A stretch of 64,000 bases of DNA. Origin: Mesorhizobium sp. (GTDB lineage: Bacteria; Pseudomonadota; Alphaproteobacteria; Rhizobiales; Rhizobiaceae). Where the stretch lies: contig SAJS01000026.1 of the NCBI GenBank assembly GCA_004017535.1, positions 1 through 64,000 of the forward strand, written 5' to 3'. How positions within the stretch are numbered: position 1 is the stretch's first letter; each line of letters starts with the position of its first letter. Both the position numbers and the translations under genes were made by a program. Positions 37,052-60,813 of this stretch are shown here, piece by piece. The notes beneath the pieces were generated by a model that saw only the letters and a program-made list of their open reading frames with translations, had not been told where the DNA came from and ran no database searches.

Positions 37052-37055
37052 CCTC

Positions 37056-37433: not shown

Positions 37434-37454
37434 CTGAGGCTGCGCGATCTCCGC

Positions 37455-40088: not shown

Positions 40089-41209
40089 GATCCCATCGCC
40101 TCGCAATAGCTGAACAACCGAACCAGTGCTTCTCGCGATATGTCGCGTTCGACAGCCGACCGGGTTTCGTCGCTGCTTTCATCCAACAGTGCCTGCGCTG
40201 CCTCGCGAAGGGCACCAGAGCGGTCGATCCGATCCAAATCGCCACTTTCGCAGTCGGTCGCGAGCCCGTCCCCGTCCAGTTCCAGATAGGCGAAGTCGGG
40301 CGCGGCTACCGCGATCGCCGCTTGAAGGATCGTTCGCCCACTTAACCGCACCCGGCCAGACGCGGCAATTCGCAGCAAAGTCTGACGCCGCAGATGAGCC
40401 GGTGGAAGCAACGCTTCAAATGCCGCGGCGCTGTCGTCGCCAGACAGCAGATGCAGGGGAGCGGTTTTCCAGGAAAAGCTAGCTGTTTCAACGGCCACGA
40501 TCTCGGGCACGGCGCCAGGCCCGGCAATGGAAACGACAAGGGCCTGACCGGGTGTATCATGCTTGAAACGGTCAGGTTCGGGCGCACCGCTATAACGGCT
40601 GCGCTCATTGATGGTGACGGGTCCGTGCCAGTCGCCAAGTGCCAGATAATCGAGGCCGGCCTTAGTCGCGCGATCTGGTGCAATGACATCGGACGCTGCT
40701 GAATCTTCGGAAAAGTTCTGAATAGCGCCATGAGCAAGGCCGAGCCGGATGGCGCCTTGCGGCGTCGCGGCGCTGTTCATCCACTCGGTAAGGTCGCGAC
40801 CGGGTCTGCGGGTGGTGCAAGGTGCAGGCAGCAGCGCCACGTCCGCGCCAATGGTCAGGGTTTCGGGCCGCGTCGCCAGCAGGACATTGTCCGGCACAAC
40901 GCTGTCCGCTGCACTCCACAATTGATCAGCCAACAGGGAATCATGGTTGCCAGGCAGCAATATCCAGCGCAGAGGCGCGCTCTGGCTCATCTCGGCCATG
41001 GCCTGCCGCAACATCGCTGGAGTGGGCGTTTCGGTATCGAACGTATCGCCGGCCAGAAGTATGGTGGATGCACCATGGACGCGTGCCTGCTCTGCCAGCC
41101 GGCTGATCGCGCCATGGCGCGCTTCACGGAGCCGCCCGCGCAGATCCTCTGGCATGTTGCCGAACCGCTTGCCGATATGAAGATCGGAGCTGTGGATGAA
41201 TCGAAACAT
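40085..41209 (-). CDS. SbcD/YhaO-like DNA-processing metallophosphoesterase
   Basis: A 374-aa protein starting MFRFIHSSDLHIGKRFGNMPED at 41209. The five calcineurin-type motifs are SSDLHIG, LLAGDTFD, LLPGNHDS, GLAHGAIQ and LGDWHGP, giving the two-metal Mre11-like nuclease site. The last 150 residues form a capping region. Codons upstream of 41209 belong to antisense sequence of the helicase gene. It lies 13 bases after that helicase gene and overlaps the SbcC-like gene, so all three are one operon. Confidence 0.9.
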   Translation of the reverse strand: MFRFIHSSDLHIGKRFGNMPEDLRGRLREARHGAISRLAEQARVHGASTILLAGDTFDTETPTPAMLRQAMAEMSQSAPLRWILLPGNHDSLLADQLWSAADSVVPDNVLLATRPETLTIGADVALLPAPCTTRRPGRDLTEWMNSAATPQGAIRLGLAHGAIQNFSEDSAASDVIAPDRATKAGLDYLALGDWHGPVTINERSRYSGAPEPDRFKHDTPGQALVVSIAGPGAVPEIVAVETASFSWKTAPLHLLSGDDSAAAFEALLPPAHLRRQTLLRIAASGRVRLSGRTILQAAIAVAAPDFAYLELDGDGLATDCESGDLDRIDRSGALREAAQALLDESSDETRSAVERDISREALVRLFSYCEAMGS

Positions 41210-41222
41210 GGAGTCTCCGAGA

Positions 41223-44200
41223 CTATGTCGATGCCAGGTTGCGCTGGGCGCGATCGATGGCTTCATCCAGCCGGGAGCGTGAAATCGCCGCAAGTCGCTC
41301 GACACCGAGCAGACGTGCAAGGTCGAGAGCGGGGTCGGACTGTTCCAGAATGTCCTCGTTCGCAACGACGACAGCGGCCAGCTCGGCGATTGGAATGTCG
41401 GCAATGGACCGGCGGGCATCGGCATCGAACGGCATGCGATAATCAAGCAGGTCGACCACCGTCCCTCTCTTCCATAGGAAGCTGCCGCTGGATTCTTCAG
41501 TTCTATCGAACTCGCGCAGATGCAGGTCGATCCGCTCCCGAATCTTGTTGCCCGTTCTGAGCCAGCCATGCGCCCGTGCGATGCGCTGCGCAAGGACGTC
41601 ATCTCGCAGAGGTCCTTCCTGCTCGATCACCGCGTCGACCATGGACCGCAGCGTGCCTCGGTAGACGAAGTCATAAAACTGATCCGGGCTGGTGGAAAAT
41701 CCGGTTAGATCAGTCAGGCGATAACGGCCGCCCGTCGGTACGGTATCATGCGTCGAATGCGCGGCCGCAGGCAAAATTCCTGCAGATGCCGATGGGCGCT
41801 CTCCCGTCGCGAGGGGAGCGGCGACAAGTTCTGGCTCTGATTTTATCGACGGATGTTCCGGTTCGCCGGCCGATGCTAGGTCTTCGGCTGGCAATGGGTC
41901 CATGGGGTCGACCTTATGTCCCATGTCCCAATGGATCGCGGCTTCACTTTCCTGTTGTTCAGCCTGTTTGCGACGGCTTTCCTCGAGCAGCGCGGCCAGG
42001 CTGGCATGAAGCCTCTCGGTGCAACCTTCGAGATCAAACCACCAATCGGTTGACCATACCCGGACAATGTTCCACCCGAGGCCGCGCAGGACCTGCTCGC
42101 GGACCTTGTCTCGATCTCGCGCCGTGGCAGAACTGTGATAGGTCGCGCCGTCGCATTCGACCCCAGCCAGATAGGCGCCGGCGAGATCGGGATGCCGGAT
42201 CCCTATATCCACTCGAAAGCCCGAAATGCCGACTTGAGGAACGATGGTCCATCCGCGCTTCTCAAGCTCGGCAGCGACGGCCTCCTCGAAAGGGGATTCC
42301 AGGGCTCCGACCGATCCGCGTTCCTGCGCTGGCAATGCCACAGCGCCGCGTTCGGCAAAATCGAGAAAGGCTTTGAGATGCTGTACGCCGATCGCTTTGG
42401 TTCGGTTGGGGTCGATCTGGTCGGCGGCAAAACCTGAAAATACGATCAGTTCCTGCCGCGCACGCGTCACCGCGACATTCAGCCGGCGTTCGCCGCCGTC
42501 CCGATTCAGCGCGCCGAAATCCATGCTGCGCTTGCCGGCATTATCTTGCGAAAAGGTGATCGAAAACAGGATTATGTCACGCTCGTCCCCTTGGACATTT
42601 TCCAGATTCTTGACGATGGCGGGCTCAATACGCTCGTCGGCAAAGAACCATTCAAGCTCCGGCTCTGTCTGGCGTGCCTTGTCGAAAAGGTCGAGGATGA
42701 GCGACTGCTGTTGCGCGTTGAAAGTGATGACTCCGAGCGTGGGTCGGTCCTTTTCCGGTAGGGCCAGCCAACGCCGCATCCTGCTGACCGCCTCGTCGGT
42801 TACCGCTTGGGCTTCGATTCGATTGGTGCGGCTTTTGCCACGGTCATAGATGCCGGTCGTGATTTTTCGCAGCTGAACTGCCCGATCTTCCACCGTTGGC
42901 GAAGGGAATGTGATGAGCCGGTTCTGATAGTAGTGATGGTTGGAAAAGGCGATCAGCGACTCATTGCGGCTACGATAATGCCAGCGCAGGTCACGTACCG
43001 GGATGCCGGCCGCTTTGGCTTCGTCGAGAATGCTCTCAAGATCCTTTTCGTGTTCGACGACTTCCTCGTCCTCCTCGTTGCGGCCAAAGAAATTGGTGGG
43101 CGGCAACTGCTTGGGATCGCCTACGATTATGGTTTGATGGGCTCGCGCGATGGCACCGACGGCGTCCCAGGTGGTGATCTGCGATGCTTCGTCGAAAATC
43201 ACCACGTCGAACAGGGCTTGGTCGGGCGGTAGATATTGAGCGATTGAAAGAGGGGACATCAGCATGCACGGCGCGAGCTTGGCAAAGCTCGTCGGCATCG
43301 CGCCAATCATCTCGCGGATTGACCGGCTGGGCCGCTGCAATTCCATCTGATGGCGCAACAGGCCCAACTCGGAATTGCGCGGGACGCCTTGCACAGCCGG
43401 CAAACCATGAGCGATGGCACTGATGACGCGAAGGCTTGCTTGAGCGCGGACAAGATCGTCGATTTCCCGGAAATCTTCGATGGCGTGCTCGTGCTGGAAG
43501 CGACGGAAATTCCGCAGCACCGGATCGGCATCCAGCGTGGCCGGCAGCCACCAGCGTACATAGGCCAGGCGGAACGCGGATTGAGCTTCAGCTGGTCGCA
43601 CTAGACCCGCCTCGATATCGTCGACCAACGCTCCCAGATTGTGACTGACAGCCCTGCGACGAATGCCGCACCACGAAGTCCAGTCCCGGAGAAGATGACG
43701 GGCGTCGAGCAAGTCTCCCATCGCAGTCGTCAATTCGGTCAGCGGGTTATCATGTTCTGCCCAAGAAGGCGTCTTTCCAGCAGGGATCGCAAATTGGGTC
43801 TTGGCAGCCTCGAATGCTGCAGAAGCCGCAAGGAAGCGGGCTGCCCCATAGCGCATCGTGCTATCTGCTGCACCGCTTCGCAGGCTCGGGGCGGTTGCTT
43901 GCAGGAGCGCTTTGAAATCCTCCGTGCCGAGGCCGGGCAGGCGTAGCGTCTGTCGAAGCCTTTCGGCCATCGAGAGTATCTGATCGATACGGTGGGTGTC
44001 GGTATCAAGTGCGGCAAATCCGATCGGCTTCCCAGATAGGATGTTGGCTTCGACAGTGGCCCGGCGGTCCTGCATCAGGCGCAACAGCAGCAAGTCGTGC
44101 TGAGGATCGGCTACCCCCTCTGTGACATAGCCTTGAAGCAGCTTCTGGACTTTGCGTTTGCCCAACTGACTGTTTGGCCAGAATGCAGAAGCGGCCTGCT

Positions 44201-47186: not shown

Positions 47187-47857
47187 ACCCCATCCCCTAT
47201 TTTCATTTACGATAGAACTTTGCCGCCAGAATTTGAAAGTAAATTCTCGGTATGGTCGCCGCTTATGTCCAGCAGCATAGATTTCTAAAAGTGTTACCGC
47301 CCAGATAACGGTCGAAATGGAGACAGGCGATAATCGGTCGTCACGATTGGAGGGGATCCAAAAGTCGCGGAAATCGGAGCGCCGGCGCACGCTGCTGAAA
47401 CCCAAGACGGGCAGGACGTCATCCGCAAATGTGTGGCGGTCCGGGCGCCATGGACCAAGCGTTGCGCGCCTATCGCGAGCGCTGTCGTGGCGCCTATCGC
47501 GGACTCGGACCCAGCCCGACAGTGACGGCGAACCTCGATCGGCCTATCGGTGAGGCGGTCGAATTCCGCCCATAGACTATCGAAAGGCACGCACTTCCAG
47601 CTCTATCTCCTCGTACGCGTTGCCGGCTACCTAAATTCGTGCGCGCGGTCCAATGCCTTTGATTGCTGATGTCGTTGTGGAGACGTTTGATCGCTGAAGC
47701 ATTTGTTTGCTGACCTAGCGGCGCGGGGGGAGGTCATTTATTGGGTACATCTCCAGCACTCTATGTGCGATCGCGAGGAAAATTTGTCCAGACAAGCGAA
47801 TTCATCGAATCTGGACTAATCAATAAGTATAATGATGGTAAGATTCGGGGGGCAGGA
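47187..47857. other. Divergent promoter region between two defence operons
   Basis: No recognisable gene. It should contain promoters for the minus-strand helicase operon and the plus-strand ATPase. An upstream in-frame start at 47741 for the latter is possible but lacks a ribosome-binding site. Confidence 0.4.
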
Positions 47858-50542
47858 ATGGCCGAGGTTGGACTTTTGGAATGGGCGGATAAGCAGCCCG
47901 ACTGGATTAGGGATGCCTTAAGAAGACACGCCGCGCGGCCGGGCTTCAACCTCGAGCAGGAGGATAAGGCCGGTGTAACAGCTCGGGTCCGCCACGTCGG
48001 TGGATTTACCGCTGATCTGCCCGAATGCTCTCCGCTCTCGGCGGAGCATTTGAGGGCCAACAGTTCGAACGAGCCGCGCGCGGTGCTTTGCTCACTCGGC
48101 CCCGTCAAGCATTTGAACCGCCTCGCCGAAGAGCAGCAACTGCGTTTCGCCACCGATGGCATCACCATTATCTACGGCGACAATGGAAGCGGAAAGAGCG
48201 GCTATTGCCGGATCGCGAAGAAGCTTTGCCGTAGTCTGACGGCGGATGATCTTCTTGGCAACGTGTTCGAGATCGGCACCAAACCGCCAGCCGAAGTGCT
48301 TGTCCGGTTTCTCGAAGAGGGTGCTACGGAACCGACCCCCATAACCTGGAAGGACGGAACGCTGCCCCCCGCGTCAATTGCACGGATCTCCGTTTTCGAC
48401 TCCGCGAACGCTCGCCTCTACGTCGATAAGCAAAACCGTATCGGTTTTCTGCCCGCAGCCATCGCGCTTCTCGAAAGCCATGGACGTCACCGCACCGAGC
48501 TCGAAGCCGACTTCCGGGAAGAAATCAAAGCGATCGAAAAGAACCTAAAGACACCATTGCCGAGTGGGTACACAGCTGCCGGCGCGGTCGTAAAGCTGCT
48601 GGCTCGTCTCGAAATCAAGTCAAAGGACGTGATGCCTTCCGCAGCCGAAATCAAAAACCTCGCTGCCCTCTCAGAGCAGGACATGGCTGATCTCGCTGGC
48701 CTCGAACAGGCTCTGGCAAGCGACCCTTCAACGATGGCGACAAAGCGTCGGCGTGCCAAGGCGGCCTTGGAAAAACTGCTGACTGCATCTGAACAGATCG
48801 ACGCGGCTCTCTCAGCGGCGGCCCTCGAGATTTATCGCAATCTATATGCAACAGCCGATTCTACAGCGCAGGCTGCACAACTTGCCGCCTCAGGAGCGTT
48901 CGCGACTATGCCGTTGAGCGGCGTTGGGCTTTCTCCCTGGCGGTATATGTTCGACCATGCACGAGCCTATTTAGCGAGCGTCACTGGCATCGATCATCAG
49001 CACTTGCCAGATCAGGAAGGCGATCGTTGCATGCTCTGCCAGGAGCCGATGACGGCGGACGCCGCGGGGCGGATCCAATCCTTCAATGACTTCGTAACGG
49101 GCGCCGCAAATAAGGCGGCGCAAGTCGCATCTATTGCCCATGAAGAGGCCCTGCGCCAAATCAAAGGACTCACCATTGCGACCGGGGAGGCGGTTGAGGC
49201 GGCTCTCGGAGAGTTTGGCGATCTGTCCGCCGCACGCAAGGCGATGGTGGCCCTGATCTCGGCATATTATGTCGAGGCAGGTAAAAGGCGTGATGCAATT
49301 GTCGTTGCGGCTGCGCTGTCCGAGTACGCTGCGTTCCCGCAACTTGCGGCGCCAGTTGCATCGAAACTCCGAACGGAGGCGGAGGCGCTAGAGGCCGAAG
49401 CGCTGACGGACGACAAGGCAGCGGCCGACGACGGGAACCGCGCTACCGATCGAGCTCGTCGCGATACACTCAAGGATCGGAAAAAACTGGGCGACGATCT
49501 CACCATCGTTCTCGCGCGCTTGGCGAATCTCGAAGAGCGGCGCAAGCTTCTCTCATGCTGCGATGCTGTCGAAACAGGCTCGGTGTCACGGCAGATGACG
49601 TCGCTTCGACGAAGCCTCGTCATGCAGGATCTCGAAAAGCGCGTCGTCGCCGAGATTGAGACTCTGGCGTTAACGCACATCCCGTTCGCAGTTAATGATC
49701 GTAGTCAAGATGGGCAGAGCTATTTCGAGGTCGGGCTCAACGCGGCAAAAGCGATCTCAAACAGCAAGGTCTTAAGCGAAGGAGAGCAGCGCGCGCTTGC
49801 CCTGGCCTGTTTCTTAGCCGAGGTCGGAGGAGACACATCGCGTCAAGGCATGATCATCGACGACCCCGTGTCATCTCTCGACCATGTTCGGATCAGGCGG
49901 GTCGCGGCAAGGCTCGTAAAAGAAGCGGCCACAGGACGTCAGATTATTATTTTCACCCATAATCTTCTGTTCTTCAACGAGGTGGTTGACGCAGCTGCGC
50001 AGGCCAATCCGCCGATTCCCCTTGTTCGAAACTACATCAACAAGTCCGAATCTGCCGGTTTTGGCTTGATTAGCGAAACTGACGAGCCGTGGATCGCACA
50101 GTCTGTCACGAAGCGCATCGAGACTCTCAAGACGCGCCTGAAGAGCTTCGACGGCGCCACTGATTTCACCACCGATGCTTGGCGAAGGTCAGCGAAGGAT
50201 TTCTACAGCGATCTTCGGGAAACCTGGGAGAGGCTCGTTGAAGAAATCCTGCTCGGTAAAGTCGTCGAGCGATTTAACAGCGATGTCAAGACACAGAGCC
50301 TGAAGGGTGTGGTGGTCGAGGACGAAGACCACAAGCGAATCTATTGGGCCATGAAGCGAGTTTCGGAGCGTTCTGGACATGACATGGCGTCCGCCAAGGC
50401 CATTCCAGTTCCAACACCAAACGATATGAAGAGCGATCTTGATGGAATTGACCAATATCGTATCGACACCACCAAACGAAAAAAGGATGCCGAAAAGCGC
50501 CGGATTGAATTCGAACAGCCTCCCAAGGCGACTGTACTCTAG
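47858..50542 (+). CDS. RloC/PrrC-like AAA ATPase with CxxC hook and anticodon-nuclease-like C-terminus
   Basis: An 894-aa protein starting MAEVGLLEWADKQPDW after GGGGGGCAGGA. Walker A is YGDNGSGKSGYC (residues 107-114). Coiled coil surrounds a CMLC pair (Cys391, Cys394) in GDRCMLCQEPMTADA, resembling the zinc hook of RloC. The ABC-like signature LSEGEQRALALACFLAEV, Walker B GMIIDDPVSSLDHVRIRR and IIIFTHNLLFFNEVV follow. Near the end, LRETWERLVEEIL gives Arg787-x3-Glu791 with His825 or His841 further on, matching the R-x3-E-xn-H catalytic pattern of PrrC/RloC anticodon nucleases. No type I restriction genes lie nearby, unlike PrrC. tRNA cleavage on phage infection is inferred. Confidence 0.8.
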   Translation: MAEVGLLEWADKQPDWIRDALRRHAARPGFNLEQEDKAGVTARVRHVGGFTADLPECSPLSAEHLRANSSNEPRAVLCSLGPVKHLNRLAEEQQLRFATDGITIIYGDNGSGKSGYCRIAKKLCRSLTADDLLGNVFEIGTKPPAEVLVRFLEEGATEPTPITWKDGTLPPASIARISVFDSANARLYVDKQNRIGFLPAAIALLESHGRHRTELEADFREEIKAIEKNLKTPLPSGYTAAGAVVKLLARLEIKSKDVMPSAAEIKNLAALSEQDMADLAGLEQALASDPSTMATKRRRAKAALEKLLTASEQIDAALSAAALEIYRNLYATADSTAQAAQLAASGAFATMPLSGVGLSPWRYMFDHARAYLASVTGIDHQHLPDQEGDRCMLCQEPMTADAAGRIQSFNDFVTGAANKAAQVASIAHEEALRQIKGLTIATGEAVEAALGEFGDLSAARKAMVALISAYYVEAGKRRDAIVVAAALSEYAAFPQLAAPVASKLRTEAEALEAEALTDDKAAADDGNRATDRARRDTLKDRKKLGDDLTIVLARLANLEERRKLLSCCDAVETGSVSRQMTSLRRSLVMQDLEKRVVAEIETLALTHIPFAVNDRSQDGQSYFEVGLNAAKAISNSKVLSEGEQRALALACFLAEVGGDTSRQGMIIDDPVSSLDHVRIRRVAARLVKEAATGRQIIIFTHNLLFFNEVVDAAAQANPPIPLVRNYINKSESAGFGLISETDEPWIAQSVTKRIETLKTRLKSFDGATDFTTDAWRRSAKDFYSDLRETWERLVEEILLGKVVERFNSDVKTQSLKGVVVEDEDHKRIYWAMKRVSERSGHDMASAKAIPVPTPNDMKSDLDGIDQYRIDTTKRKKDAEKRRIEFEQPPKATVL

Positions 50543-50563
50543 CCTAATGACTATTGTCGTGTA

Positions 50564-50893
50564 TTACTGGCCCTCACTGGCTTCATCCTGCTGCGCATGC
50601 CGGTGTCCGCCTGCCGCGGGCGAAGCCGACGTGACGAGGAAGTATCGCGAGGGCGCCAAGCCATCAATGGCTGTGCGCTCGCTCTTCATCTTGGATTTCA
50701 GCGCCGAGAAGCCTGACCGCTGGTAGTGCTTCGCCTGCACAATGTCGCCGCCGGCAAGGGCATGTCGACCATCCATCGCGTCGTCCGGTCCCTCGGGAAA
50801 GGCCTCGAAACGCTTGTCGATCTCGCGACCTACGAGGTCGCGGGCCAAATCCTCAAACTCGTTATGGGACAAACTCGAGAAATCATAAGCCAT
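50564..50893 (-). pseudogene. Mrr-like restriction endonuclease N-terminal fragment
   Basis: A 109-aa frame from MAYDFSSLSHNEFEDLARDL at 50893. It carries a PD-(D/E)XK restriction-type core: FEAFPEGPDDAMDGRHALAG and DIVQAKHYQRSGFSALKSKM, then SRYFLVTSASPAAGG. In intact relatives this domain leads into a large NTPase region; here the frame ends with 12 unrelated residues next to the ATPase gene. It is therefore a leftover of a larger gene, antisense between two plus-strand genes. Confidence 0.65.
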
Positions 50894-51072
50894 GCGCCCA
50901 GATTGAGTGCCCATTTGGTGGGCAGACAAGCAACCGGGGGCACAATTGCGTCGTGCCTCTCCATTACCAACAAAAAGATAAACGCGCTTTCCAGGCGATG
51001 CGGTCGGATGATCGTTTCGCGCTTGGCAAAAGCGAACGGATTAGTCTATGGCTCTCGGCGGGGGGGCGAGTT

Positions 51073-52410
51073 ATGCGACGGGTGCGAATCCTTCAAGTAG
51101 GCGATATTCACTATCCGGATTGGCATCCTTCCTCTAGCAACATCGATGCCAAGGATAGCAAGTTCGCTCCGAAAATAACGCAGAAGCTACGCGCGTCTTC
51201 GCTGCGTGCCGTCTTGACGAAGCTTCGGCGGCTGACGACTTCGAAGCCCTTGGATTCGATCGCCTTCATGGGGGATTTCACGAGCCGTGGCGACAAGACT
51301 TTCATTGCTTCGGCATTCCAGCATTTCACGTTGCTCTGCCGCGCACAGGGGCGCAGTTCAAAGGCGCTTCCGTTGATATTCGTACCGGGAAATCACGATG
51401 TGAACCGTGATGACGCGCGCGAACTTGGACCGACTGAGAAATTCAGCGAAATGGCGAGTTTAGCCGCCCGCTTGGGTTGGCAGACCGTTCCCGTGGACCA
51501 ACCCGTGCACTTCAGACTTCCGACAGGATCCGCAGGCGCAAACTTCATCCTCGTCAACACAGCGATAGGCAGTTGGGAGCTTCAGAACCTTCCCGCGTTC
51601 CTTCGTGATCGTCTCGAGGCACTCGGTCCTTCTACAGAACCTGTAGATCTCGGCTCGCCGGACACCTCGGGACATTCGCCCGCGACACCTCCCAGCGATC
51701 CAGACAAGGAGGCGTCCGACGACGAGTATTACGGTCAGATGGACACGCCATACATCTCGCGTGAGATGCTTGCAGGCCTACAGGAATTGCTCCAGCAGCC
51801 CGACATGCGTTACGGCATCATGATCGGCCATCACAATCTGCTGCCACAAAAGACTCCGCGCATTACGCCATACGCGGAGATGCTCAACAGCGGATTTGTC
51901 AGAACTCAGCTGCTGCAGGGCAACAAGCCTATCGTCTACCTGCATGGACACATACATGCCGATCCGGTCGAGATCGTCAACGATCCAAGGTTTCCGGACG
52001 GCAAATTGATCTGCATCTCAGCACCAGAGATACAGTCAGGTTTCAATGAGCTCGTCTTCTTCACGACCGATCAGGGAGAGCTCGTCGGCATCCGACTTAT
52101 ACCCTACCGCACCAATGTCGCCGACGGGACGGTCATGGAAGGCGAACATTGCTTCATCTCGACTATGTCCAACGGCAAGGCCTTTCTGAACAACGACACG
52201 TTTGACCTGATGCGCCGACTGCGCGACCATGCCACCAGGCGCGGGAATGGGTTACTCTTCTGGGACGAGATCACTGAGATTGCCGCCTCCGCCGAGCTCG
52301 GGCTAGATTTGGAAGACTCTCTTCTGATGCTCCAAGCGGCGCGCTTCGTCGAGATAGACGGCCTCACGAAGGCAAACTCGGCTTGGCGCATTAAGGTAAG
52401 GGACGAATAG
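51073..52410 (+). CDS. Calcineurin-type metallophosphoesterase, gene 1 of a three-gene cassette
   Basis: A 445-aa protein. The start at 51073 (MRRVRILQVGDIHYPDW) follows GGGGGGCGAG; upstream codons in frame belong to the antisense fragment. All metal-binding motifs are present: VGDIHYP, FMGDFTSRGD, VPGNHDVNRDD, IGHHN and LHGHIHADP. An acidic linker (about residues 200-225) separates the halves of the fold and the last 90 residues form a helical domain (NNDTFDLMRRLRDHATRR). Unlike the SbcD-like protein at 40085-41209 it resembles cytosolic phosphodiesterases of the 3',5'-nucleotide type. It ends two bases before the ATPase gene, so they are co-translated. Confidence 0.85.
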   Translation: MRRVRILQVGDIHYPDWHPSSSNIDAKDSKFAPKITQKLRASSLRAVLTKLRRLTTSKPLDSIAFMGDFTSRGDKTFIASAFQHFTLLCRAQGRSSKALPLIFVPGNHDVNRDDARELGPTEKFSEMASLAARLGWQTVPVDQPVHFRLPTGSAGANFILVNTAIGSWELQNLPAFLRDRLEALGPSTEPVDLGSPDTSGHSPATPPSDPDKEASDDEYYGQMDTPYISREMLAGLQELLQQPDMRYGIMIGHHNLLPQKTPRITPYAEMLNSGFVRTQLLQGNKPIVYLHGHIHADPVEIVNDPRFPDGKLICISAPEIQSGFNELVFFTTDQGELVGIRLIPYRTNVADGTVMEGEHCFISTMSNGKAFLNNDTFDLMRRLRDHATRRGNGLLFWDEITEIAASAELGLDLEDSLLMLQAARFVEIDGLTKANSAWRIKVRDE

Positions 52411-52412
52411 AG

Positions 52413-54479
52413 ATGGAGAATCCGTTCGGCCCCAACAGGATCGAGTACGAAAGTCGCCCGATACTGTGGTTCAGTCAGAAGTCGGCCTTGATTTCTGCCG
52501 CCGCCAAGCCGGTCTTCGTCGCAGGGACGAGAGGCAGCGGCAAGACCAGTATTCTTCGCTCGCTTTCCACAGTTCATATCCTCGAAGACAAAAGTCTCGC
52601 GGACCAAGTCGGCAAGCTCGGCTGGTATGGCGTCTTCTTCCAGCTCAATGAGACATTTTCGCCCCTAATCGACAACGCGGTTCTGAACCTCATTCCGGAG
52701 CGGATACGCTTCGACACGGCCGCCGTGATCCCGCGGCAATTCGTAATCTTCTCTCACTATCTGGAGCTGAAGATAGTCGAACGCCTGCTCGAGAGCATCA
52801 GCCAGCTCAGACGCGACAGCCACTTGAAATACCGGGCCTCTGAAGATAGGGACGTCGCCTTGGCACTGCATCGCGAAGTGCTGCACTTCATACCCCAACC
52901 TGCCCGTCTCGACTTCTTCAGCATAGATGAGCTGCGGGGTGGGATAACCCGGTACGTCGACGAATGCTTCAACGCGTTCTTCTTTGCCGCCGATGAGGGA
53001 GCGACCGGCTTCAGAGCGACAGACCCTGGCGCGATCATTAACAAGGTCGCGACCGCGATCACCCCACTTTTAAATGGCCCATCTTTCGCCGGTGACAGGG
53101 CGCCCTTCTTCAAGATCCTGATTGACGACTGTGAGGCACTGACACCGCTCCAACAGCAGTTCCTGAACACCTTGGTGAGGAAGACGCGCGGCAATGTGAA
53201 ATGGGTCCTCGCCTACATCGGCGGCCTTTACGACACGATCCGGACGATCATACCCGGCCAGTCGCTCTCGAATGCTGACCGGGACGTCGAGAATCTTGAT
53301 TCAGTCGATCCGAGGGAGTTCGCCACGCTGTGCGAGAACGTGTCGTCGCTTCGGCTCTACTATGCGCTTCCTGACCATCTGCGGAGTGATCTCAAGCGCA
53401 ACGATGCGCTCAGCGCGTTTTCGCTCAAAAACCGGCTGGGGCGGCTTTCCGTCAATGACATCATCGAGCGGGTTATCATATCGGGTCATTCCGAGGGCAG
53501 AGAAGAGCTTGTGGCACTCGCTGATGCAGCACGTGAATTCCTCTCCGTGAATTTGAGGACGGCGGATCAGCAGCAATTCCTTCTTGATCGAAAAGCGCGC
53601 CCTTATGCCGAAGGGCTGGCGCTCGCGCTCATGAACCCGGAAATCAAGCGCCGGCCCATGAGCAAGGCGGATGCTTCAAATCTGAAGAGGTCGATCGCCC
53701 GGAAACAGGGATGGGCTTTTCTGAAAGCGTGCCAGATGCTGCGTCTGCATGACTACCCGTACGTAGGGCACCAGATCATCACATCATTGAGCGACGTCTG
53801 TATACGCGATTTCCTTGATATAATGGGAGAGATCTTCCGCCGCAGTGTTCCGAGTTCCAGTGATCCACGAAAACTGGTGGAATTCATCAACTCGGATTTA
53901 CAGATTCATCTCGAACAGCAGAGACAGGCTGTGAACGCCGCCTCTCAACGGAAGCTTGATGGACTTCAGGCGCTTTCACATCCGTACGAAGAAGAGAGCG
54001 TGCGCATGGTGCGGGCGTTGGGTTACCTGACCGCTCGCCTCCAGACAGAGTTTGCCGAAGAAAATGCTCTAGGAACGACAGAGAGAGGCATTTTCAGGGT
54101 TGATCTAAAGGAAATGCGCTCGCTGGTGAACCGACTGGAGCAACCCAGCGGAAAACTGGACGAGGTCCTGCGTCGGGCGGAAAGGGATGGGTTTATCCGG
54201 GAGGTCTCCGCCGCCGGCAACTTTGAGGTGGACCGCGCCGACCCCGCATCGAAGGAGATGCTGATCAGATTGCATCGGCGATTTGCACCTTACTTCGGGT
54301 TCTCCTATCGCGGCCCGTACGAAATCAACACAATCCCTGCGGCGCAGATGGTCGACCTGCTTTTTACCAGGCATCGGCTCCCAGAAGACTGGGCCGACTC
54401 GGTGTTTAAGGAGCTCGTCGCGCGGCCCGCACTCAAGACCGAATTCCAGCACTCGCTTTTCGAGAGCGATCTCGAATGA
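52413..54479 (+). CDS. ORC/STAND-like P-loop ATPase, gene 2 of the cassette
   Basis: A 688-aa cytosolic protein. Walker A is VFVAGTRGSGKTSIL (residues 38-45) and Walker B FFKILIDDCEAL (about 233-242), followed by KWVLAYIGG as a possible sensor strand. The middle has conserved-looking helices (GLALALMNPEIKRRPMSKAD). The C-terminal part (about 560-640) looks like a winged helix: MRSLVNRLEQPSGKLDEVLRRAERDGFI. The layout resembles ORC/CDC6-like or STAND NTPases that act as regulated switches. I cannot name a family. It overlaps the third gene by four bases. Confidence 0.78.
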   Translation: MENPFGPNRIEYESRPILWFSQKSALISAAAKPVFVAGTRGSGKTSILRSLSTVHILEDKSLADQVGKLGWYGVFFQLNETFSPLIDNAVLNLIPERIRFDTAAVIPRQFVIFSHYLELKIVERLLESISQLRRDSHLKYRASEDRDVALALHREVLHFIPQPARLDFFSIDELRGGITRYVDECFNAFFFAADEGATGFRATDPGAIINKVATAITPLLNGPSFAGDRAPFFKILIDDCEALTPLQQQFLNTLVRKTRGNVKWVLAYIGGLYDTIRTIIPGQSLSNADRDVENLDSVDPREFATLCENVSSLRLYYALPDHLRSDLKRNDALSAFSLKNRLGRLSVNDIIERVIISGHSEGREELVALADAAREFLSVNLRTADQQQFLLDRKARPYAEGLALALMNPEIKRRPMSKADASNLKRSIARKQGWAFLKACQMLRLHDYPYVGHQIITSLSDVCIRDFLDIMGEIFRRSVPSSSDPRKLVEFINSDLQIHLEQQRQAVNAASQRKLDGLQALSHPYEEESVRMVRALGYLTARLQTEFAEENALGTTERGIFRVDLKEMRSLVNRLEQPSGKLDEVLRRAERDGFIREVSAAGNFEVDRADPASKEMLIRLHRRFAPYFGFSYRGPYEINTIPAAQMVDLLFTRHRLPEDWADSVFKELVARPALKTEFQHSLFESDLE

Positions 54480-55531
54480 CCGCTTCAACTGTCGAGTATC
54501 GAGTCTTCGGCCATCTGGCCGTCACTGAGAAGGCGAGAGATGCAGGTACCTGCGAAACGATGGAGGCAGATATCGCGATCGTCGCGCTTGGATGGGAAAC
54601 GCGTTTCGCCGCGTTCGAAAACCATCTTGACCTGAAGGTCGGCAAAATCGTGGTTCTGGACTTTGCTCTGAAGGAAGCGAACGTCCCAGCCGTCGAAGAA
54701 AACCGGCGAAAGCTCATCGCTATGGGTACCCGATGGGGCGTCGAAGTGACTGCGATCACCCTCGAGCCTTCCATCGAGTATCAGAAGAACATCAATCTCC
54801 TCGATCACCTGCTCACTCAGATGGCCGCTTCATGTGGCTCATACGAAGGAAGCCTGCGGAAGGTTTTCGTCGAGTGCTCGACGATGCCGCGAATCTACAT
54901 CCAATGGCTGATTGCGGTGGCATTCAAGAAAATGTCGATTCAGTCTCTCGAATTCGGGTACGCCGAAGGTATCTACGGGAACGCGATCGGCAAAGAGGAT
55001 TTTTCCAGCGGCTTGGACCGATACGTCACCGTCCCTCATCTTCAAGGCAGCGGAGGAATGGGCGAAGAGAAAGTCCTGCTCGTGGGGATCGGAGGAGATG
55101 CCGACGTATTCTACGGATTGATCGATATCGTCAGTCCGGAACGGATCTCGCTCCTCGTCCCAAGAAGCGAGAAGAATGCGCATATCGATGCTTTGCTCGA
55201 TCAACAGGTGGCCAAGGTACGTGAAACCCACCGGCTCGAAGATGGCGAAGTTCGCGACATCCAGGCTTTCGGGCTGATGGCCCACCTCGATGCTTTCGAG
55301 ACGTATCTCGACGGGTTCGGCTCGCGTGCGGTGGTGAACGTTTTTGTCAGCGGCCCGAAGGTTCAGGCCATCGCTGCTGCCGTGCTCGCCTGCTCCGACA
55401 GCCGCGTCCATCTCAAGGCACGAATTCCCACCTCCTATGCCCATCGTGAAGTCTCAGCGAATGGGCGGTATCATATCTATAGGCTGATTGACCTGACATC
55501 CCCTGCCTGCAGCCTTCCCGGGACGTTCTGA
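54476..55531 (+). CDS. Two-lobed Rossmann-like protein of unknown function, gene 3 of the cassette
   Basis: A 351-aa protein without signal or membrane segments. It has two similar halves: IAIVALGWETRF (residues 33-44), KIVVLDFAL, FVECSTMPRIYIQWL (131-145) and YAEGIYG (162-168) in the first; VLLVGIGGDADVFYGLIDIV (200-219), ERISLLVP and VNVFVSGPKVQAIAAAVLA (287-305) in the second. Alternating beta strands and helices suggest Rossmann-type lobes that could bind a nucleotide or signal. The GWETR and CSTMPR elements recur in unnamed proteins near ATPases, as far as I recall. A sensor or effector role for the ATPase is a guess. Confidence 0.7.
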   Translation: MTASTVEYRVFGHLAVTEKARDAGTCETMEADIAIVALGWETRFAAFENHLDLKVGKIVVLDFALKEANVPAVEENRRKLIAMGTRWGVEVTAITLEPSIEYQKNINLLDHLLTQMAASCGSYEGSLRKVFVECSTMPRIYIQWLIAVAFKKMSIQSLEFGYAEGIYGNAIGKEDFSSGLDRYVTVPHLQGSGGMGEEKVLLVGIGGDADVFYGLIDIVSPERISLLVPRSEKNAHIDALLDQQVAKVRETHRLEDGEVRDIQAFGLMAHLDAFETYLDGFGSRAVVNVFVSGPKVQAIAAAVLACSDSRVHLKARIPTSYAHREVSANGRYHIYRLIDLTSPACSLPGTF

Positions 55532-55799
55532 CACGATCTTGCATTCGAGTAGCATCATGGTCCCAGTAGCCGTTCCGCCAAGCCTTCAGCGCATGTTCGT
55601 GTCGCCCGATCCGGTCGATGGGGGACTAATTCCCACTTAGAAGCTGCTCTACATCAGATCAGGGGAAATGCAGACTGGCAGAATTCCATAATTAGCGACT
55701 CAAAACATATACTCAGGCGAGACTGTTTAGCATAGAAATAGTGAGCGCTCTCCAATATGTTAGGCTCTGTCGCAGTAGCGCAACAAGCTCAGTCTTTGG

Positions 55800-56042
55800 A
55801 TGGGTGGTATGAGGATGAGACGACTGAATGTGTACAGGCTCAGTCATTTTATCGAGGCTCTCGTTTTTGTCGTAAGCGCGTTCGGTGCGACGTGGCTTAC
55901 CAGCTTTGTGAACGCGCCATGGTGGGCATATGTGATTATAGCGGCCATCACTATGGGCATGTTCGTAGCCGTGCGTCGGGTCCTTTCTGAGCCGCAACGT
56001 ATGGGACTCTTGGCACACAACTCGGCAGCGACCTCTGCGTGA
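55800..56042 (+). CDS. Small membrane protein, about 75-80 aa
   Basis: Reads MGGMRMRRLNVYRLSHF, then two hydrophobic stretches (IEALVFVVSAFGATWLTSF and WWAYVIIAAITMGMFVAV) and a polar tail ending HNSAATSA. Met codons at 55809 and 55815 are alternative starts; no strong ribosome-binding site marks one. The two-helix hairpin with a positive N-terminus is convincing for a small inner-membrane protein. Family unknown. Confidence 0.55.
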   Translation: MGGMRMRRLNVYRLSHFIEALVFVVSAFGATWLTSFVNAPWWAYVIIAAITMGMFVAVRRVLSEPQRMGLLAHNSAATSA

Positions 56043-56137
56043 ACCCAGGCGCCTTGAAAATGTCCCCGATGCGTCCGGATTTTTGGCGGTGATCTTCAAT
56101 CAAATGCGATGAGCTGCAATTTCTGGCGACGGCCACG

Positions 56138-57196
56138 CTAAGGGCGGGCCTCCAGCACCATGTTGAACGGTGTCTCCGCGGCGCGACGCAATCGCTTGAA
56201 GCCGCCGCCGGTCACAACCTTGCGCAGCCTCGCCTCACCGGCCTGGGCTCCAAGCGCGAGCCCGACTTCCTGCGACACGGATGCGGGCGTGCACACGAAA
56301 GTGGAAGCGGCATAGTAAACGCGGCCGACGGGATTGAGGTTCGCCGCCAGATGATCATGCGCGAACGGCTCGACGATCATCCACGTGCCGTCCGGCTTGA
56401 GCGATCCGTGGACATGGGTGGCGGCGCCCGTCGGGTCGCCCATGTCGTGAAGGCAATCGAAGAATGTGACGAGGTCATACGTTCCGGGATAGCTCTTGGC
56501 GGCCGCCACGTCGAACCGCGTGTTAACGCCGACGCCGGCTACCTCGGCCGCCTTGCGGGCGCGCTCAATCGAGGGGGCATGATAGTCGAAGCCGACGAAG
56601 CGCGAATTGGGGAAGGCCTGTGCCATGAGCACGGTCGATGCACCATGACCGCATCCAACATCCGCGACGTCCACGCCGCGTTCGAGCTTCTCGACGACGC
56701 CCTCCAAGGCCGGCAGCCAGGAGTCGATCAGATTGGCATTGTAGCCTGGACGGAAGAACCGTTCCGTACCGCGAAACAGACACGCGCTATGATCGTGCCA
56801 CCCGACGCCCTTGCCGGACTGGAATGCCTGCCTCACCTTTTCTTCATCGAGCCACAGCGCGGACAGGAACTCGAATGCGCCTGCCATGAAGGCCGGGCTG
56901 TCTTCATCAGCGAACACCAGCTCTTGCTCGGCGTTGAGATAGAATTTGTCGCTCGCTTCATCGTAGTCGACGTAACCCGCCGCCGCCTGCCCGGAAAGCC
57001 ATTCCCTTACGAGGCGTTCCTGGGTGCCGGTGCGTGTCGAAAGTTCGGCGGCCGTCATCTTGCCGCCTTCGCGCAATGCCTTAAACAGGCCGAGTCTGTC
57101 CCCCAGCAGGACTCCCGCGCCCGTTGCGATCGCACCGAGATCGCCGACCATTTTCCCCAAGAATGCGTCCAACTTTTCCTGATTCGCTTCAGACAT
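56138..57196 (-). CDS. Class I SAM-dependent methyltransferase with N-terminal winged helix
   Basis: A 352-aa protein of the Rv2258c-like type. Residues 1-100 form a winged-helix dimerisation domain (GVLLGDRLGLFKALREGG, TAAELSTRTGTQERLVREWL). The methyltransferase core begins VDVADVGCGHGASTVLMAQAF (motif I) and continues FVGFDYHAPSIERARKAA, TYDLVTFFDCLHDMGDPTGA and PDGTWMIVEPFAHD. The C-terminus GGGFKRLRRAAETPFNMVLEARP is also typical. The substrate is unknown. A ribosome-binding site AAAGGGAGATTC precedes the ATG. The gene stands alone. Confidence 0.9.
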   Translation of the reverse strand: MSEANQEKLDAFLGKMVGDLGAIATGAGVLLGDRLGLFKALREGGKMTAAELSTRTGTQERLVREWLSGQAAAGYVDYDEASDKFYLNAEQELVFADEDSPAFMAGAFEFLSALWLDEEKVRQAFQSGKGVGWHDHSACLFRGTERFFRPGYNANLIDSWLPALEGVVEKLERGVDVADVGCGHGASTVLMAQAFPNSRFVGFDYHAPSIERARKAAEVAGVGVNTRFDVAAAKSYPGTYDLVTFFDCLHDMGDPTGAATHVHGSLKPDGTWMIVEPFAHDHLAANLNPVGRVYYAASTFVCTPASVSQEVGLALGAQAGEARLRKVVTGGGFKRLRRAAETPFNMVLEARP

Positions 57197-57214
57197 CTGA
57201 ATCTCCCTTTGGGT

Positions 57215-57480
57215 TCAATCTCTCCAGGCGACGGAGCCGTGCTCGTCATGAGGCGCCTTGAGCATCAGATGCTCGAAGACATGCAGATATCCCCGGCGGC
57301 TCATCCGCGCTGCCGATCCTGCACCAGACCATATCGGTGACGAGCGGCGCGGTGGTCGGGAATGACAGCCACCTCCATGCCGTTGAAAAGCAGGAAATCC
57401 GTCACTTTGCCCTCGTCGGTAACCGGCGGAGCCGGAGTGGTCGTCACCAGGGCAAGCCCTGTTGCAGCAGGTATCCTTGG
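57215..57480 (-). pseudogene. M16 (pitrilysin-type) zinc peptidase remnant
   Basis: Minus-strand frames give the N-terminus of an M16 peptidase: DEGKVTDFLLFNGMEVAVIPDH, then in the next frame VTDMVWCRIGSADEPPG, then LHVFEHLMLKAPHDEHGS. The zinc motif HxxEH survives as HVFEH, but two frame changes and loss of everything downstream mean the gene is dead. Intact relatives read NGMEVVVIPDHRAPVVTHMV-like sequence at the same place. Confidence 0.65.
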
Positions 57481-58100
57481 GCAGCCTGTCAGAACATCGA
57501 TGACTCCGGTTGTGGTGCCGGGGCGGGCGATCAGGGGCCAAGTGATTGTTCCGCGGCGGCTGTATGTTGTGGTAAGGTGATCATGCGAACTCTTGTTGGT
57601 CGGTCACGTGTTTTGCGGATGACCCGCATGTACTGTGCCAAATGAGAAAACCATTCAAACGCAATCCAGTAGATCTGACTGTATCCGACATTGTCGGAAT
57701 TTGGACATCGCCGAACGCGAAGCGCTCGGGGCTTGTGACGATACTTGAGCGTGCTGCTTCGGAGGAGGGATGCGCCTCGAACCGGCCGCGAGGCCTTTTT
57801 CTGGCAACGGATATTCCGGCCGGGTTAGGCCGCGAGGAAAGCGACGGTGAATAAGAGGTAGAGGACCAACCGTTTTGAGCGGGTAGTTGCCGTGTTGCGC
57901 CCCCAGGCAAAGGCCAGCACCACGGAGCAGTATTTCTGGTGGCGATACTACATCGCCTTTAAGTGCCGGTTACCCGTTTTTACCCAGTTGGCCTGGTGCA
58001 TTCAGAGCGAGGTCGTTGGAAACCGCTTATTGTGGCTATGAGCAAACTCGGGATGGAGGAGTGGACCCAAAAATTGGCAAAATGCCCCAGGGAGGATTAC
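57481..58100. other. Intergenic region, no gene seen
   Basis: Short frames on both strands, none recognisable. A ribosome-binding site GGGAGG at 58090 belongs to the pseudogene that follows. Confidence 0.4.
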
Positions 58101-59101
58101 ATGGGTCGCTCATTCCCCGTACTCGTTACAGGTGCGCGTCGCTACGCAAACAGCTTGCTTTTGACTTGGCGTTTCTTGCCGTTTCGGCATCGCTCACTAA
58201 TTCGGCCGCTGCCGACACCGTGAACTGGCGTCAATTCGAAGGGACCAGCATAACTTGGGCCTACGACATCCACCCCTATGCGGATGCTCTCGCTGCGCAA
58301 CTTTCCGGAGTTCGAGAAGCTGACCCGGCATCAAGGTCACGCCGGAACTCTACCCAGACGATTCTTACTGGAACAAGATGACGATCCAACTGACGACGAA
58401 GTCGCCAGCATGGGATGTGTTCGGCACTGGCATTCAGCCCGCGTAGGACCTCGCTCCGAGTGGCGCCTGCTGGACAAATACCTGAGTGATCCGAAGCTTA
58501 CCGATGCTGGATACGACTACATTCGGACATGATCAAGAAGTGCGCGGCTCCTTCCTTCGCCAATGATAACTGGAACCAGGTCGTGGACGGCATCTCGTCC
58601 GGCCGCACCGCGATGACGATCGACTCAAAAATGTTCGGCTTCTGGAACGATGTTGCGGGGAAGCCGGCATCCGGCAAGATCGCCTTCGCTCCGCCGCTGC
58701 ACGCACCGAGCGCCACGAGCTTGGATTCTGACATCTGGATCTGGGCTCTCGCCATGAACGCGGCTTCCGAAAAGAAGGGCACGGCCTGGCTGTTCATCCC
58801 GTGGGCCACCTCCAAGCAGGTGGCGCTCAAGGGTGCCCTTGCTGGCCAGCTCGTCAATCCGCCGCGCACGTCGACCTGGCAGGACGATACCTAGACTAAG
58901 TACGCTTCGCAGCCCGAGTTCAACAACTTCGTTGACAGCTTCAAAAAGATACAGGATCAAGCCGCGCTGGCTTTCACACCGCGTGTCGGCTTCGGCGAAG
59001 CCATGAACGCATGGGCCGTGGCGATGCAGAAGATGGCAAACGGCGATGACGTCGAGACGACGTTGAGGGCGCTTGCCGAAGAAATCCGCACTGGCCTCTG
59101 A
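58101..59101 (+). pseudogene. Sugar ABC transporter solute-binding protein, pseudogene
   Basis: A family 1 extracellular solute-binding protein broken into several frames. Pieces in order: a signal-peptide region, DTVNWRQFEGTSITWAYDIHPYADAL, the region FEKLT-GIKVTPELYPDDSYWNKMTI, QLTTKSPAWDVFGTGIQP, then LLDKYLSDPKLTDAGYDYI. An internal deletion leads to NDNWNQVVDGISSGRTAM and SDIWIWALAMNAASEKKGTAW, a TAG at about 58892 interrupts, and the frame continues YASQPEFNNFVDSFKK to AEEIRTGL and TGA at 59099-59101. Only about 300 of some 420-440 codons remain. Confidence 0.78.
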
Positions 59102-59108
59102 TCAAAAG

Positions 59109-59140
59109 GAACAGGGCAGTACTATTGCACTGCCCTGTTC
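59109..59140 (+). terminator. Perfect 12-bp stem-loop after the solute-binding pseudogene
   Basis: GAACAGGGCAGT and ACTGCCCTGTTC form a perfect 12-bp stem around an 8-base loop, starting eight bases after the stop codon. There is no T run after it (CCGCC follows), so it is terminator-like or an intercistronic RNA-stabilising hairpin, as is usual between a binding-protein gene and its permeases. Confidence 0.7.
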
Positions 59141-59358
59141 CCGCCAACGGCGGAGATCACGCCGTGTCACCCCAAGCACTTAAACCCAGCGCTGCTTCGC
59201 CCGGCCGCGCCGACGATTTTTCTTGGCCGCCAAGGCGGCAGCCTGCGGCCGGGGCCACAACCGAAACGACCACGGCGATCAGTCCGTAAGCTGCCCGGGG
59301 CAGCGGAAGGGCGGAAAGCGCCTTCAGGTGGCCGCACAAGTAGGGTCTCGAGACGGAC
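59141..59358. other. Short intergenic region
   Basis: No gene seen. The permease genes that should follow a sugar-binding protein are absent; the next gene is gltD, convergent. Confidence 0.4.
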
Positions 59359-60813
59359 TCAGCGCGGCAGCACGCTCGATCCCATCAGCGCCTCATCGAT
59401 GGCGCGCGCCGCCTGGCGGCCCTCGCGGATCGCCCAGACGACCAGCGACTGGCCGCGCCGCACGTCGCCCGCCGCATAGAGCTTTTCGACGCTGGTCCTG
59501 TAGTCCCGGTCATTGGCCTCGACATTCTTCGAGCGGCGGCTGTCAATGGCGATCTTCATCTGGCCGGCCAGTTCCGACACCGGCCCGCGAGCGGCTGGCC
59601 CGGCAAAGCCGATGGCGATGAACGCGAGATCGGCACGAATGACGAATTCGCTGCCGGCGATCGGCTTGCGCTTTTCGTCGACCTCGCAGCATTTGACCCC
59701 GGTCAGCTGGCCGTCTTCGCCGATGAACTCGAGCGTCGCCACCTGAAACTCGCGCTCGGCGCCTTCGGCCTGCGAGGACGAGGTGCGCATCTTGGTCGCC
59801 CAGTAGGGCCAGACCGAAAGCTTGTCTTCCTTTTCCGGCGGCTGCGGACGGATGTCGAGCTGGGTGACGCGGACCGCGCCCTGGCGGAAGGCGGTGCCGA
59901 CGCAGTCGGACGCGGTATCGCCGCCGCCGACGACGACCACATGCTGGCCGCCGGCGAGGATCGGATGCGACGGCCACGCCACCGACTGGATCGGTTCGCC
60001 GCCGACACGCCTGTTCTGCTGCACCAGATAGGGCATCGCGTCATGCACGCCGCCGAGATCGTCGCCGGGAATGCCGGCCGCGCGCGGCGTTTCGGAACCG
60101 CCGCAATAAAGCACCGCGTCATGTTCGGCGAGCAGCTCGGCAACCGGCTTGTCGACGCCGACATTGACGCCGCAATGGAAGGTGACGCCCTCGCCCTGCA
60201 TCTGCTCGATGCGCCGGTCGATATAGTGCTTCTCGATCTTGAAGTCGGGAATGCCGTAACGCATCAGCCCGCCGGGCCGGCTCTCGCGCTCATAGACATG
60301 GACGTCGTGGCCGGCGCGGCCGAGCTGCTGGGCAGCCGACATGCCGGCCGGGCCGGAGCCGATGACGGCGACGCGCTTGCCGGTCTTCTTCTCCGGCGGA
60401 TAGGGCCTGATATGGCCGGTCTCGTAAGCCTTGTCGGCGATCGCCTGCTCGACCGTCTTGATGGCGACGGGAATGTCCTCGAGGTTCAGCGTGCAGGCTT
60501 CCTCGCAAGGTGCGGGGCAGATGCGGCCGGTGAATTCCGGGAAATTGTTGGTCGAATGCAGGTTGCGGATCGCATTGTCCCAGTCGCCATTGTAGACGAG
60601 GTCGTTCCAGTCCGGGATCTGGTTGTGGATGGGACAGCCCGTTGGCCCGTGGCAGAACGGAATGCCGCAATCCATGCAGCGCGCGGCCTGTTTCTCGACC
60701 TCCTTGTCCGACATCGGCAGCGTGAATTCACGGAAATGCCGGATGCGGTCGGAGGCCGGCTGGTACTTGTGCACCTGCCGGTCGATTTCGAGAAAGCCTG
60801 TTACCTTGCCCAT
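59359..60813 (-). CDS. gltD: Glutamate synthase small subunit GltD
   Basis: A 484-aa NADPH-dependent subunit. Start [20 protein letters not shown] at 60813 with CAGGAGCTGG upstream. The N-terminal iron-sulfur domain has [20 protein letters not shown] and [17 protein letters not shown]-binding [17 protein letters not shown] and NADPH-binding [17 protein letters not shown] follow, and the C-terminus [23 protein letters not shown] is characteristic. It normally works with the large subunit GltB to make glutamate from glutamine and 2-oxoglutarate. No gltB lies next to it, which is unusual, so it may be an extra copy or a stand-alone GltD-like oxidoreductase. Confidence 0.94.

Follow-up and report, generated by a model that had tools for sequence, protein, structure and literature searches.

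The described systems closest to the locus reported here encode, in this order, an effector of the PRTase-CE (PF24390) or HD-CE (PF24391) family, an ORC-CDC6-like AAA+ ATPase (PF24389) and a CARF6 protein. Proteins in which a kinase, an AAA+ ATPase with an arginine finger in its P-loop and a CARF domain are fused were described in 2014 (PMC4012209). CARF-HAD phosphatases drain ATP and IMP and halt phage (PMC12715507), and nucleotide depletion by phosphoesterases has been cited as a theme in immunity (PMC12839542, which refers to Nicastro et al. 2023). Here, we describe a trio of genes with the same layout from Mesorhizobium sp. (assembly GCA_004017535.1, contig SAJS01000026.1). The window, i.e., the whole stretch analysed, comprises 64,000 nucleotides from position 1 of this contig, which is contig C18 of a 6.86-Mb genome. 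The first gene codes for a calcineurin-like phosphoesterase, the second for the ATPase and the third for the CARF6 protein (Table 1). We predict with moderate confidence that the trio is an anti-phage or anti-plasmid module, belonging to a class that consists of an exchangeable enzyme, an ORC-CDC6-like AAA+ ATPase and a CARF6 protein. This reading is based on gene order, protein families, co-divergence of the three genes, exchange of the effector slot and a defence-rich and plasmid context, to which the fold of gene 3 adds weakly. The ligand, complex formation, the direction of signalling, the substrate and the outcome are inferred.

The trio shows the arrangement that characterizes the class, with an effector gene, a PF24389 gene and a CARF6 gene adjacent on one strand. 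Genes 2 and 3 are a conserved pair, and the gene 1 slot varies. Among 38 neighbourhoods, the first slot is occupied by a calcineurin-like phosphoesterase (14), PRTase-CE (14), HD-CE (6) or a kinase fused to the ATPase (2; L062 and L081); it is ambiguous in L090 and cut by the record end in L095. The survey was made by phmmer with chosen query proteins, over flanks of unequal length, so that misses are possible. It omits near-identical Mesorhizobium copies (L001-L019, L029-L031), a locus damaged by insertion sequences (L070), three loci with a short PF24389 match and no CARF6-like partner seen (L064, L065, L066), duplicates of L084/L085 (L078, L086, L087), short loci superseded by longer ones and weaker PF24389 hits. 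The resulting partner shares are not unbiased frequencies, because many loci were reached via relatives of methyltransferase-linked members and because L084 and L085, both counted, are near-identical. For 12 distant PF24389 genes, the gene directly upstream codes for PRTase-CE in seven cases and for HD-CE in three; one has no match, and one is DruA, which is probably an unrelated neighbour. The first slot of locus L113, which was found later through its thyX gene and is outside the 38, is taken by a protein that resembles kinases (Pkinase 8.5e-7, slightly below the cut-off). A match to CARF6 was obtained in all eight loci that were scanned singly (the window, L057, L058, L059, L060, L063, L062 and L113), either for the protein that follows the ATPase or at the end of the fused protein. 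A gene 2/gene 3 pair that stays constant while the slot swaps enzymes supports the phosphoesterase as effector, the CARF6 protein as sensor and the ATPase as switch, the first gene being taken as the effector because of its position and its exchange. The original prediction, made from the letters of the window, was of an ATPase that regulates the phosphoesterase, with gene 3 as sensor or effector. It is partly supported, in that the sensor version fits a conserved pair with a swapped enzyme.

The same gene order recurs on replicons of Mesorhizobium, Bosea, S. meliloti (pSymA), Ensifer, Agrobacterium, Rhizobium, M. huakuii and A. fabrum, and the trio is also found on three IMG/VR viral contigs. 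All three genes are present in order in 13 of the 14 calcineurin-type loci (gene 1 of L020 being cut by the contig end); L069 is without gene 3. Identity to the window ranges, for genes 1, 2 and 3, from 0.72, 0.78 and 0.76 in S. meliloti down to 0.17, 0.18 and 0.16 in viral contig L084. Across 11 trios, pairwise identities for one gene closely track those for the other two (r = 0.98-0.99), which none of 5000 permutations reached; the three genes have diverged together. Among 34 plasmid records with gene 2, gene 3 is also detected by tblastn in 31, and a divergent gene 3 adjoins in two more; in the last record (Sphingobium, truncated gene 2), no gene 3 was seen. This contradicts the outcome that had been named as refuting the prediction, namely that genes 2 and 3 never co-occur. 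The plasmids are typed as conjugative in 28 of the 31 records with gene 3 and in 30 of the 34 with gene 2. In one S. meliloti plasmid (L070), gene 1 and the first part of gene 2 are missing next to insertion sequences. A protein search of 50,697 phage records gave no match for gene 2, gene 3 or the gene 2 of the viral contigs. PF24389 is found above cut-off in 14 of 398 genomes drawn from the phylum and, at E 1e-10, in 13 of 397 genomes of the order and 3 of 385 of the class; these draws overlap, and the window's genome is in each.

The layout had been described correctly: open reading frame coordinates (51073-55531) place all three genes on the plus strand, with a 2-base gap between genes 1 and 2 and a 4-base ATGA overlap between genes 2 and 3. 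Gene 1 is started at the ATG at 51073, and its frame is also open from a GTG at 50953. It carries the motifs DIH (11-13), GDFTSRGD (67-74), GNHD (106-109), GHHN (252-255) and GHIH (292-295), which we take to be the calcineurin-type metal-motif set. In an alignment of 12 homologues, one of them without the N-terminus, conservation is complete or at least 90% at residues D11, H13, G67, D68, G106-D109, H253, H254, G292, H293 and H295. The full set of metal motifs that had been claimed is therefore present and conserved, and it places the protein among the calcineurin-like phosphoesterases. The best PDB match is LMO2642 (2.9e-7). For gene 1, the only gene with a usable synonymous substitution rate (dS), the ratio of nonsynonymous to synonymous rates (dN/dS) against S. 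meliloti is ~0.07 at a dS of 2.7, which is near saturation. Because of this ratio and the recurrence of the gene order across genera, the trio genes are not chance open reading frames.

Gene 2 scores 262.7 bits against PF24389 (cut-off 27) over nearly its full length and has both a Walker A (GTRGSGKT, 38-45) and a Walker B motif (ILIDDCE, 235-241), and is thus a member of this family. Each of the 14 calcineurin-type loci has an arginine in the P-loop; over all ATPase open reading frames, some of these being fragments, it is present in 23 of 37. Both Walker motifs had been read correctly from the sequence. The C-terminal winged helix proposed along with them is weakly supported: residues 560-620 show the succession E-H-H-E-E in a model of low confidence (mean predicted local distance difference test score (pLDDT) 57.8; 77-82 in the block 561-590, lower beyond), and there is a match to MksE below cut-off (14 bits, cut-off 27).

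Gene 3 was assigned to CARF6 when PADLOC was run on the trio, as had been suggested, and the match extends from end to end (residues 4-351). This rules out that it represents an unknown family. The CARF6 names of PADLOC presumably derive from Makarova et al. 2020. In Pfam, there is no match at E up to 1, and a sequence-profile search against solved structures gave no credible match. The motifs GWETRF (39-44) and VGIGGDAD (203-210) were located as predicted, and the two predicted alpha/beta lobes are visible in the structure model (mean pLDDT 64.4); the PADLOC family name says three CARF domains. When this model was compared with solved structures by Foldseek, it matched the CARF domain of T. 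thermophilus Csm6 (E 3e-3, prob 1.00) and those of Cam1 and Csa3 (prob 0.96-0.98), a resemblance to solved CARF domains that the model suggests weakly. Gene 3 also carries VECSTMPR and SGPK. Among 22 aligned homologues, the lysine of the C-terminal GPK never varies, and conservation of the GWETR arginine is at least 90%. A signature described for CARF domains, [DN]x[ST]xxx[RK] after strand 4 (PMC4012209), is found in its strict form at the aligned site in 25 of 35 homologue open reading frames by eye, and in 26 of 35 when the pattern may lie anywhere in residues 81-260. Gene 3 is likely to encode a ligand sensor, with a nucleotide-type ligand as the candidate.

In related strains, the trio is held in a block with a recurrent left junction. 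In L012-L018, position 51005 of the window joins position 34501 via ~170 bases, and 34502-51004 is absent. The trio is present there without the 16.5 kb of other defence-like genes and therefore occurs independently of them. On the right, L012 has ~1.5 kb of additional sequence after 55745, the contigs of L013-L017 stop shortly past this position, and the similarity of L018 extends to 59195. No flanking repeats of at least 9 bases are shared between 50930-51072 and 55532-55830. There is no Rfam match at gathering score in 47000-60000, and promoter and terminator scans gave counts at chance level.

Table 1. Coordinates of the three genes and of the block that holds them.
Feature	Position	Strand	Length	Basis
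Gene 1, calcineurin-like metallophosphoesterase, proposed effector	51073..52410	+	445 aa	PF00149 1.1e-10, metal motifs
Gene 2, ORC-CDC6-like AAA+ ATPase, proposed switch/platform	52413..54479	+	688 aa	PF24389 9.6e-78, aa 3-636
Gene 3, CARF6-type protein, proposed nucleotide sensor	54476..55531	+	351 aa	PADLOC PDLC01919 4.7e-220, Foldseek
Trio-holding block in related strains	51005..55745	.		left junction near 51005 recurrent, right end putative

Of the defence genes that had been claimed as neighbours of the trio, PADLOC matches in the window confirm that they are defence-like. A 2060-aa helicase-nuclease (DUF4011/DUF3320/MTES_1575) at 41223-47405 (-) matches PDC-S37 (E 0) and Hhe (1.6e-155), and a 933-aa AAA_13-type ATPase at 47741-50542 (+) matches the candidate PDC-S06 (7.1e-168). 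The 121-aa open reading frame at 50564-50929 (-) is probably a remnant, matching the N-terminus only of Aga_TIR-PNTD (PDLC02400, 2.6e-41, profile 1-92 of 639). The same island has a possible SbcCD-like pair: a second calcineurin-like phosphoesterase at 40085-41602 (-) (PF00149 2.1e-8) lies beside an SbcC/SMC-like ATPase at 37455-40106 (-).

The wider class has an unexpected partnership with thyX and with DNA methyltransferases. A DNA methyltransferase gene is found near 19 of the 38 loci: 3 of the 14 calcineurin loci, 9 of the 14 with PRTase-CE, all six with HD-CE, and one (L062) of the remaining four. The calcineurin trios concerned include viral contigs L083-L085. Most of these genes are directly adjacent; in L059, the nearest lies at a distance of ~3.5 kb. 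For six methyltransferases used as queries, Pfam confirmed the assignment, and others bear it in their annotation. The thyX gene occurs in nine of the 38 loci (L067, in two pieces, L068, L079, L092, L093 and L096-L099) and dUTP diphosphatase in one (L101). RHR...S, presumably the ThyX motif, is kept in all seven thyX checked in those loci, and the thyX of L079 matches PF02511. In the PRTase-CE loci L060, L061, L063, L082 and L091, which are without a methyltransferase, there is a protein of 600-odd residues with a HAD-type hydrolase domain (Pfam on one member, where only HAD-type hydrolase families matched), accompanied by a gene for NADAR, for a PfkB-type kinase or for both. On a Moraxella osloensis plasmid (L101, 1170-8891), NACHT, dUTP diphosphatase, PRTase-CE, ATPase, CARF6-like protein and N6 DNA methylase are encoded in one run. 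No methyltransferase or thyX match was obtained for the window trio and the eight nearest of its kind (L020-L026 and the truncated L069). In the searches made, which covered the window from ~42 kb onwards, the trio had no adjacent partner of the methyltransferase, ThyX, PfkB, NADAR or HAD-hydrolase type.

The window's genome has no thyX gene, and of 199 genomes of the order, 3 carry one. Those three are without an ATPase or CARF6 match in the available flank (~1.5 kb or less), which speaks against a general link. A search with the thyX of A. fabrum matched 240 plasmid records, and among the best 60 of these 240, at least 15 are thyX genes of Hyphomicrobiales plasmids. Nine of 15 lie beside an ATPase-CARF6 pair (eight known from the survey, the ninth being L113), and three more are within ~3 kb of a gene 2 match by coordinates only, giving 12 of 15. 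Most of the twelve were first found through the ATPase, and further records may add more. The remaining ones are L107, beside the PADLOC pair PDC-M65A/B, and L108 and L110 with a similar two-gene layout. Two further alphaproteobacterial thyX genes among the matches listed, from Acidiphilium and Paracoccus, are annotated without such neighbours. The rhizobial plasmid locus L107 (7001-11360; PDC-M65A/B was scanned in this locus only) is a second candidate for a thyX-linked defence pair.

Among the papers listed by literature searches for ThyX with CARF or defence terms, none was recognised as describing such a link; one survey of jumbo phages contained all terms of one search. ThyX, rare in the order, and DNA methyltransferases recur as partners, which suggests a specific cue or target for the sensors (thymidylate, dUTP or DNA methylation). 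It is tempting to speculate, although we consider it rather doubtful, that the class polices the state of DNA precursors and DNA methylation. The enzymes would attack deoxynucleotides, perhaps on the dTTP/dUTP branch, the methyltransferase would mark self, and ThyX or dUTPase would restore or shield thymidylate, a rescue that lets the host survive its own weapon. The window trio would then be a stripped-down version that relies on the host for the self mark and the rescue.

For the trio as a defence module, we propose the following course. A DNA or nucleotide cue that is linked to infection would be recognised jointly by the ATPase, perhaps as an oligomer and perhaps in contact with DNA via a C-terminal winged helix, and by the CARF6 protein, the Rossmann-like lobes of which would bind a nucleotide-type ligand. 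An ATP-dependent rearrangement would release or activate the phosphoesterase. This enzyme would hydrolyse phosphoester bonds of free (deoxy)nucleotides or of nucleic acid, and phage replication or the cell would be stopped. As its target, we propose nucleotides first and nucleic acid second, because the analogues are CARF-HAD phosphatases, the metallophosphatases of DS-8 and DS-9 (see below) and nucleotide-depleting phosphoesterases. Several observations weigh against a defence module of this design. No messenger-making cyclase was recognised beside the trio, and the two SMODS genes of the genome are on other contigs (C1 and C3). The structure models of genes 2 and 3 were both built on 6-7 sequences, with pLDDT values that are poor for the former and middling for the latter. 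The CARF matches of gene 3 have TM-scores of only ~0.25 over the query, its best Foldseek E-value is to a KCC-1 domain, and other Rossmann proteins are among the matches, including an rRNA methyltransferase with prob 0.96. In the window, gene 3 has Glu (VECSTMPR) where the CARF signature has Asp or Asn. Finally, the weak PDB matches of gene 1 below LMO2642 include Mre11/SbcD and nuclease MPE (E ~0.01-0.06), so that it could be a nuclease.

These matches, weak as they are, would suit a restriction-like nuclease, in which gene 1 cuts DNA or RNA as Mre11/SbcD does, the DNA-binding ATPase guides it, and operonic or resident methylation protects the host. The methyltransferase genes near half of the surveyed loci, viral calcineurin trios included, point the same way, but no nearby match to a methyltransferase was obtained for 11 of the 14 calcineurin-type loci, including that of the window (downstream side only for L020). 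To our knowledge, the HD-CE, PRTase-CE and kinase of the same slot are not nucleases, and we regard this explanation as unlikely. Signal-degrading enzymes are frequent in CARF systems, and gene 1 might accordingly be an off-switch that breaks down the CARF6-bound signal in the manner of a ring nuclease or phosphodiesterase, with a toxic or DNA-acting ATPase or CARF6 protein. Gene 1 has a match to the NCBIfam cyclic-AMP phosphodiesterase, at 23.9 bits far below the cut-off of 225, and the metallophosphatase of DS-8 is a homologue of the human cGAMP-cleaving enzyme SMPDL3A (PMC13092281). Signal cleavage is, however, hard to reconcile as a shared job with a slot that is taken by PRTase-CE, HD-CE or a kinase in relatives. 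Moreover, the same short deletion breaks gene 1 in the Mesorhizobium loci L004 and L019; genes 2 and 3 are open in L004, where toxicity should be unleashed if gene 1 acted as the brake; in L019, gene 3 is shortened too. We thus consider an off-switch improbable. An operon for plasmid or island maintenance or for regulation, without a role in defence, would agree with the conjugative typing of most gene 2 plasmids, and AAA+ winged-helix proteins also serve replication and partition. Such an operon fits poorly with exchanged effector enzymes, thyX and methyltransferase partners, viral contigs and PADLOC-listed neighbours, and we give it very little credence.

The claim that the trio matches no named system holds for the trio as a whole, which the profiles run leave unassigned; it does not hold for the parts, since CARF6, PF24389 and the sister effectors PRTase-CE and HD-CE all have names. 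RADAR couples an AAA+ ATPase to a nucleotide-processing enzyme, as the trio may do, and in Foldseek, the model of gene 2, which is of low confidence, has RdrA as its first match (E 2e-3, prob 0.82). We know of no CARF in RADAR, and the trio has no deaminase; at 11.3 bits against a cut-off of 600 for the NCBIfam RdrA model, gene 2 is not a RADAR component. Signalling by an operonic cyclase, as in cyclic-oligonucleotide-based antiphage signalling systems (CBASS) or type III CRISPR, was rejected as well, as Pfam and PADLOC show no cyclase family in the trio (Cas10 was not searched for). In DS-8 and DS-9, a metallophosphatase is essential for phage defence, and DS-8 pairs it with a NACHT P-loop ATPase (PMC13092281). 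Thymidylate synthase is among the newly validated defence domains of the same study, but the term CARF is absent from its main text. Gene 1 is not a member of either system, with 18.1 bits for DS-8 and 32.4 bits for DS-9 against NCBIfam cut-offs of 790 and 420. The CARF-HAD phosphatase Chp of type III-A CRISPR likewise joins CARF sensing to a phosphate-removing enzyme and depletes nucleotides, but it is a single fused membrane protein with a HAD fold, its CARF domain binds cA4, and no AAA+ ATPase is mentioned in the abstract (PMC12715507). CARF_STK_AAA (PADLOC PDLC01925; PMC4012209) resembles the trio in joining an AAA+ ATPase with a P-loop arginine finger to CARF. It is a fused polypeptide with a kinase, whereas the trio consists of three separate genes with a phosphoesterase. 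L062 matches both PDLC01925 (E 0) and PF24389.

The PRTase-CE and HD-CE systems differ from the trio in their first gene and in the partner genes, which are not found beside the trio in the window. The consecutive accessions PF24389, PF24390 and PF24391 suggest one source, probably Nicastro et al. 2023, the abstract of which is said to name Calcineurin-CE, HD-CE and PRTase-CE. No model under the name Calcineurin-CE matched gene 1 in Pfam or NCBIfam, and among the matches listed by literature searches for PRTase-CE, HD-CE, Calcineurin-CE and CARF6, none was relevant. The layout of the trio has probably been predicted in print already, and because each of its parts belongs to a named family, the trio is best placed in a known, probably predicted kind. 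A formerly unassigned trio can thus be grouped with a defined class in which the enzyme is swappable, and the logic of this class can be tested by keeping the ATPase-CARF6 pair and changing the enzyme.

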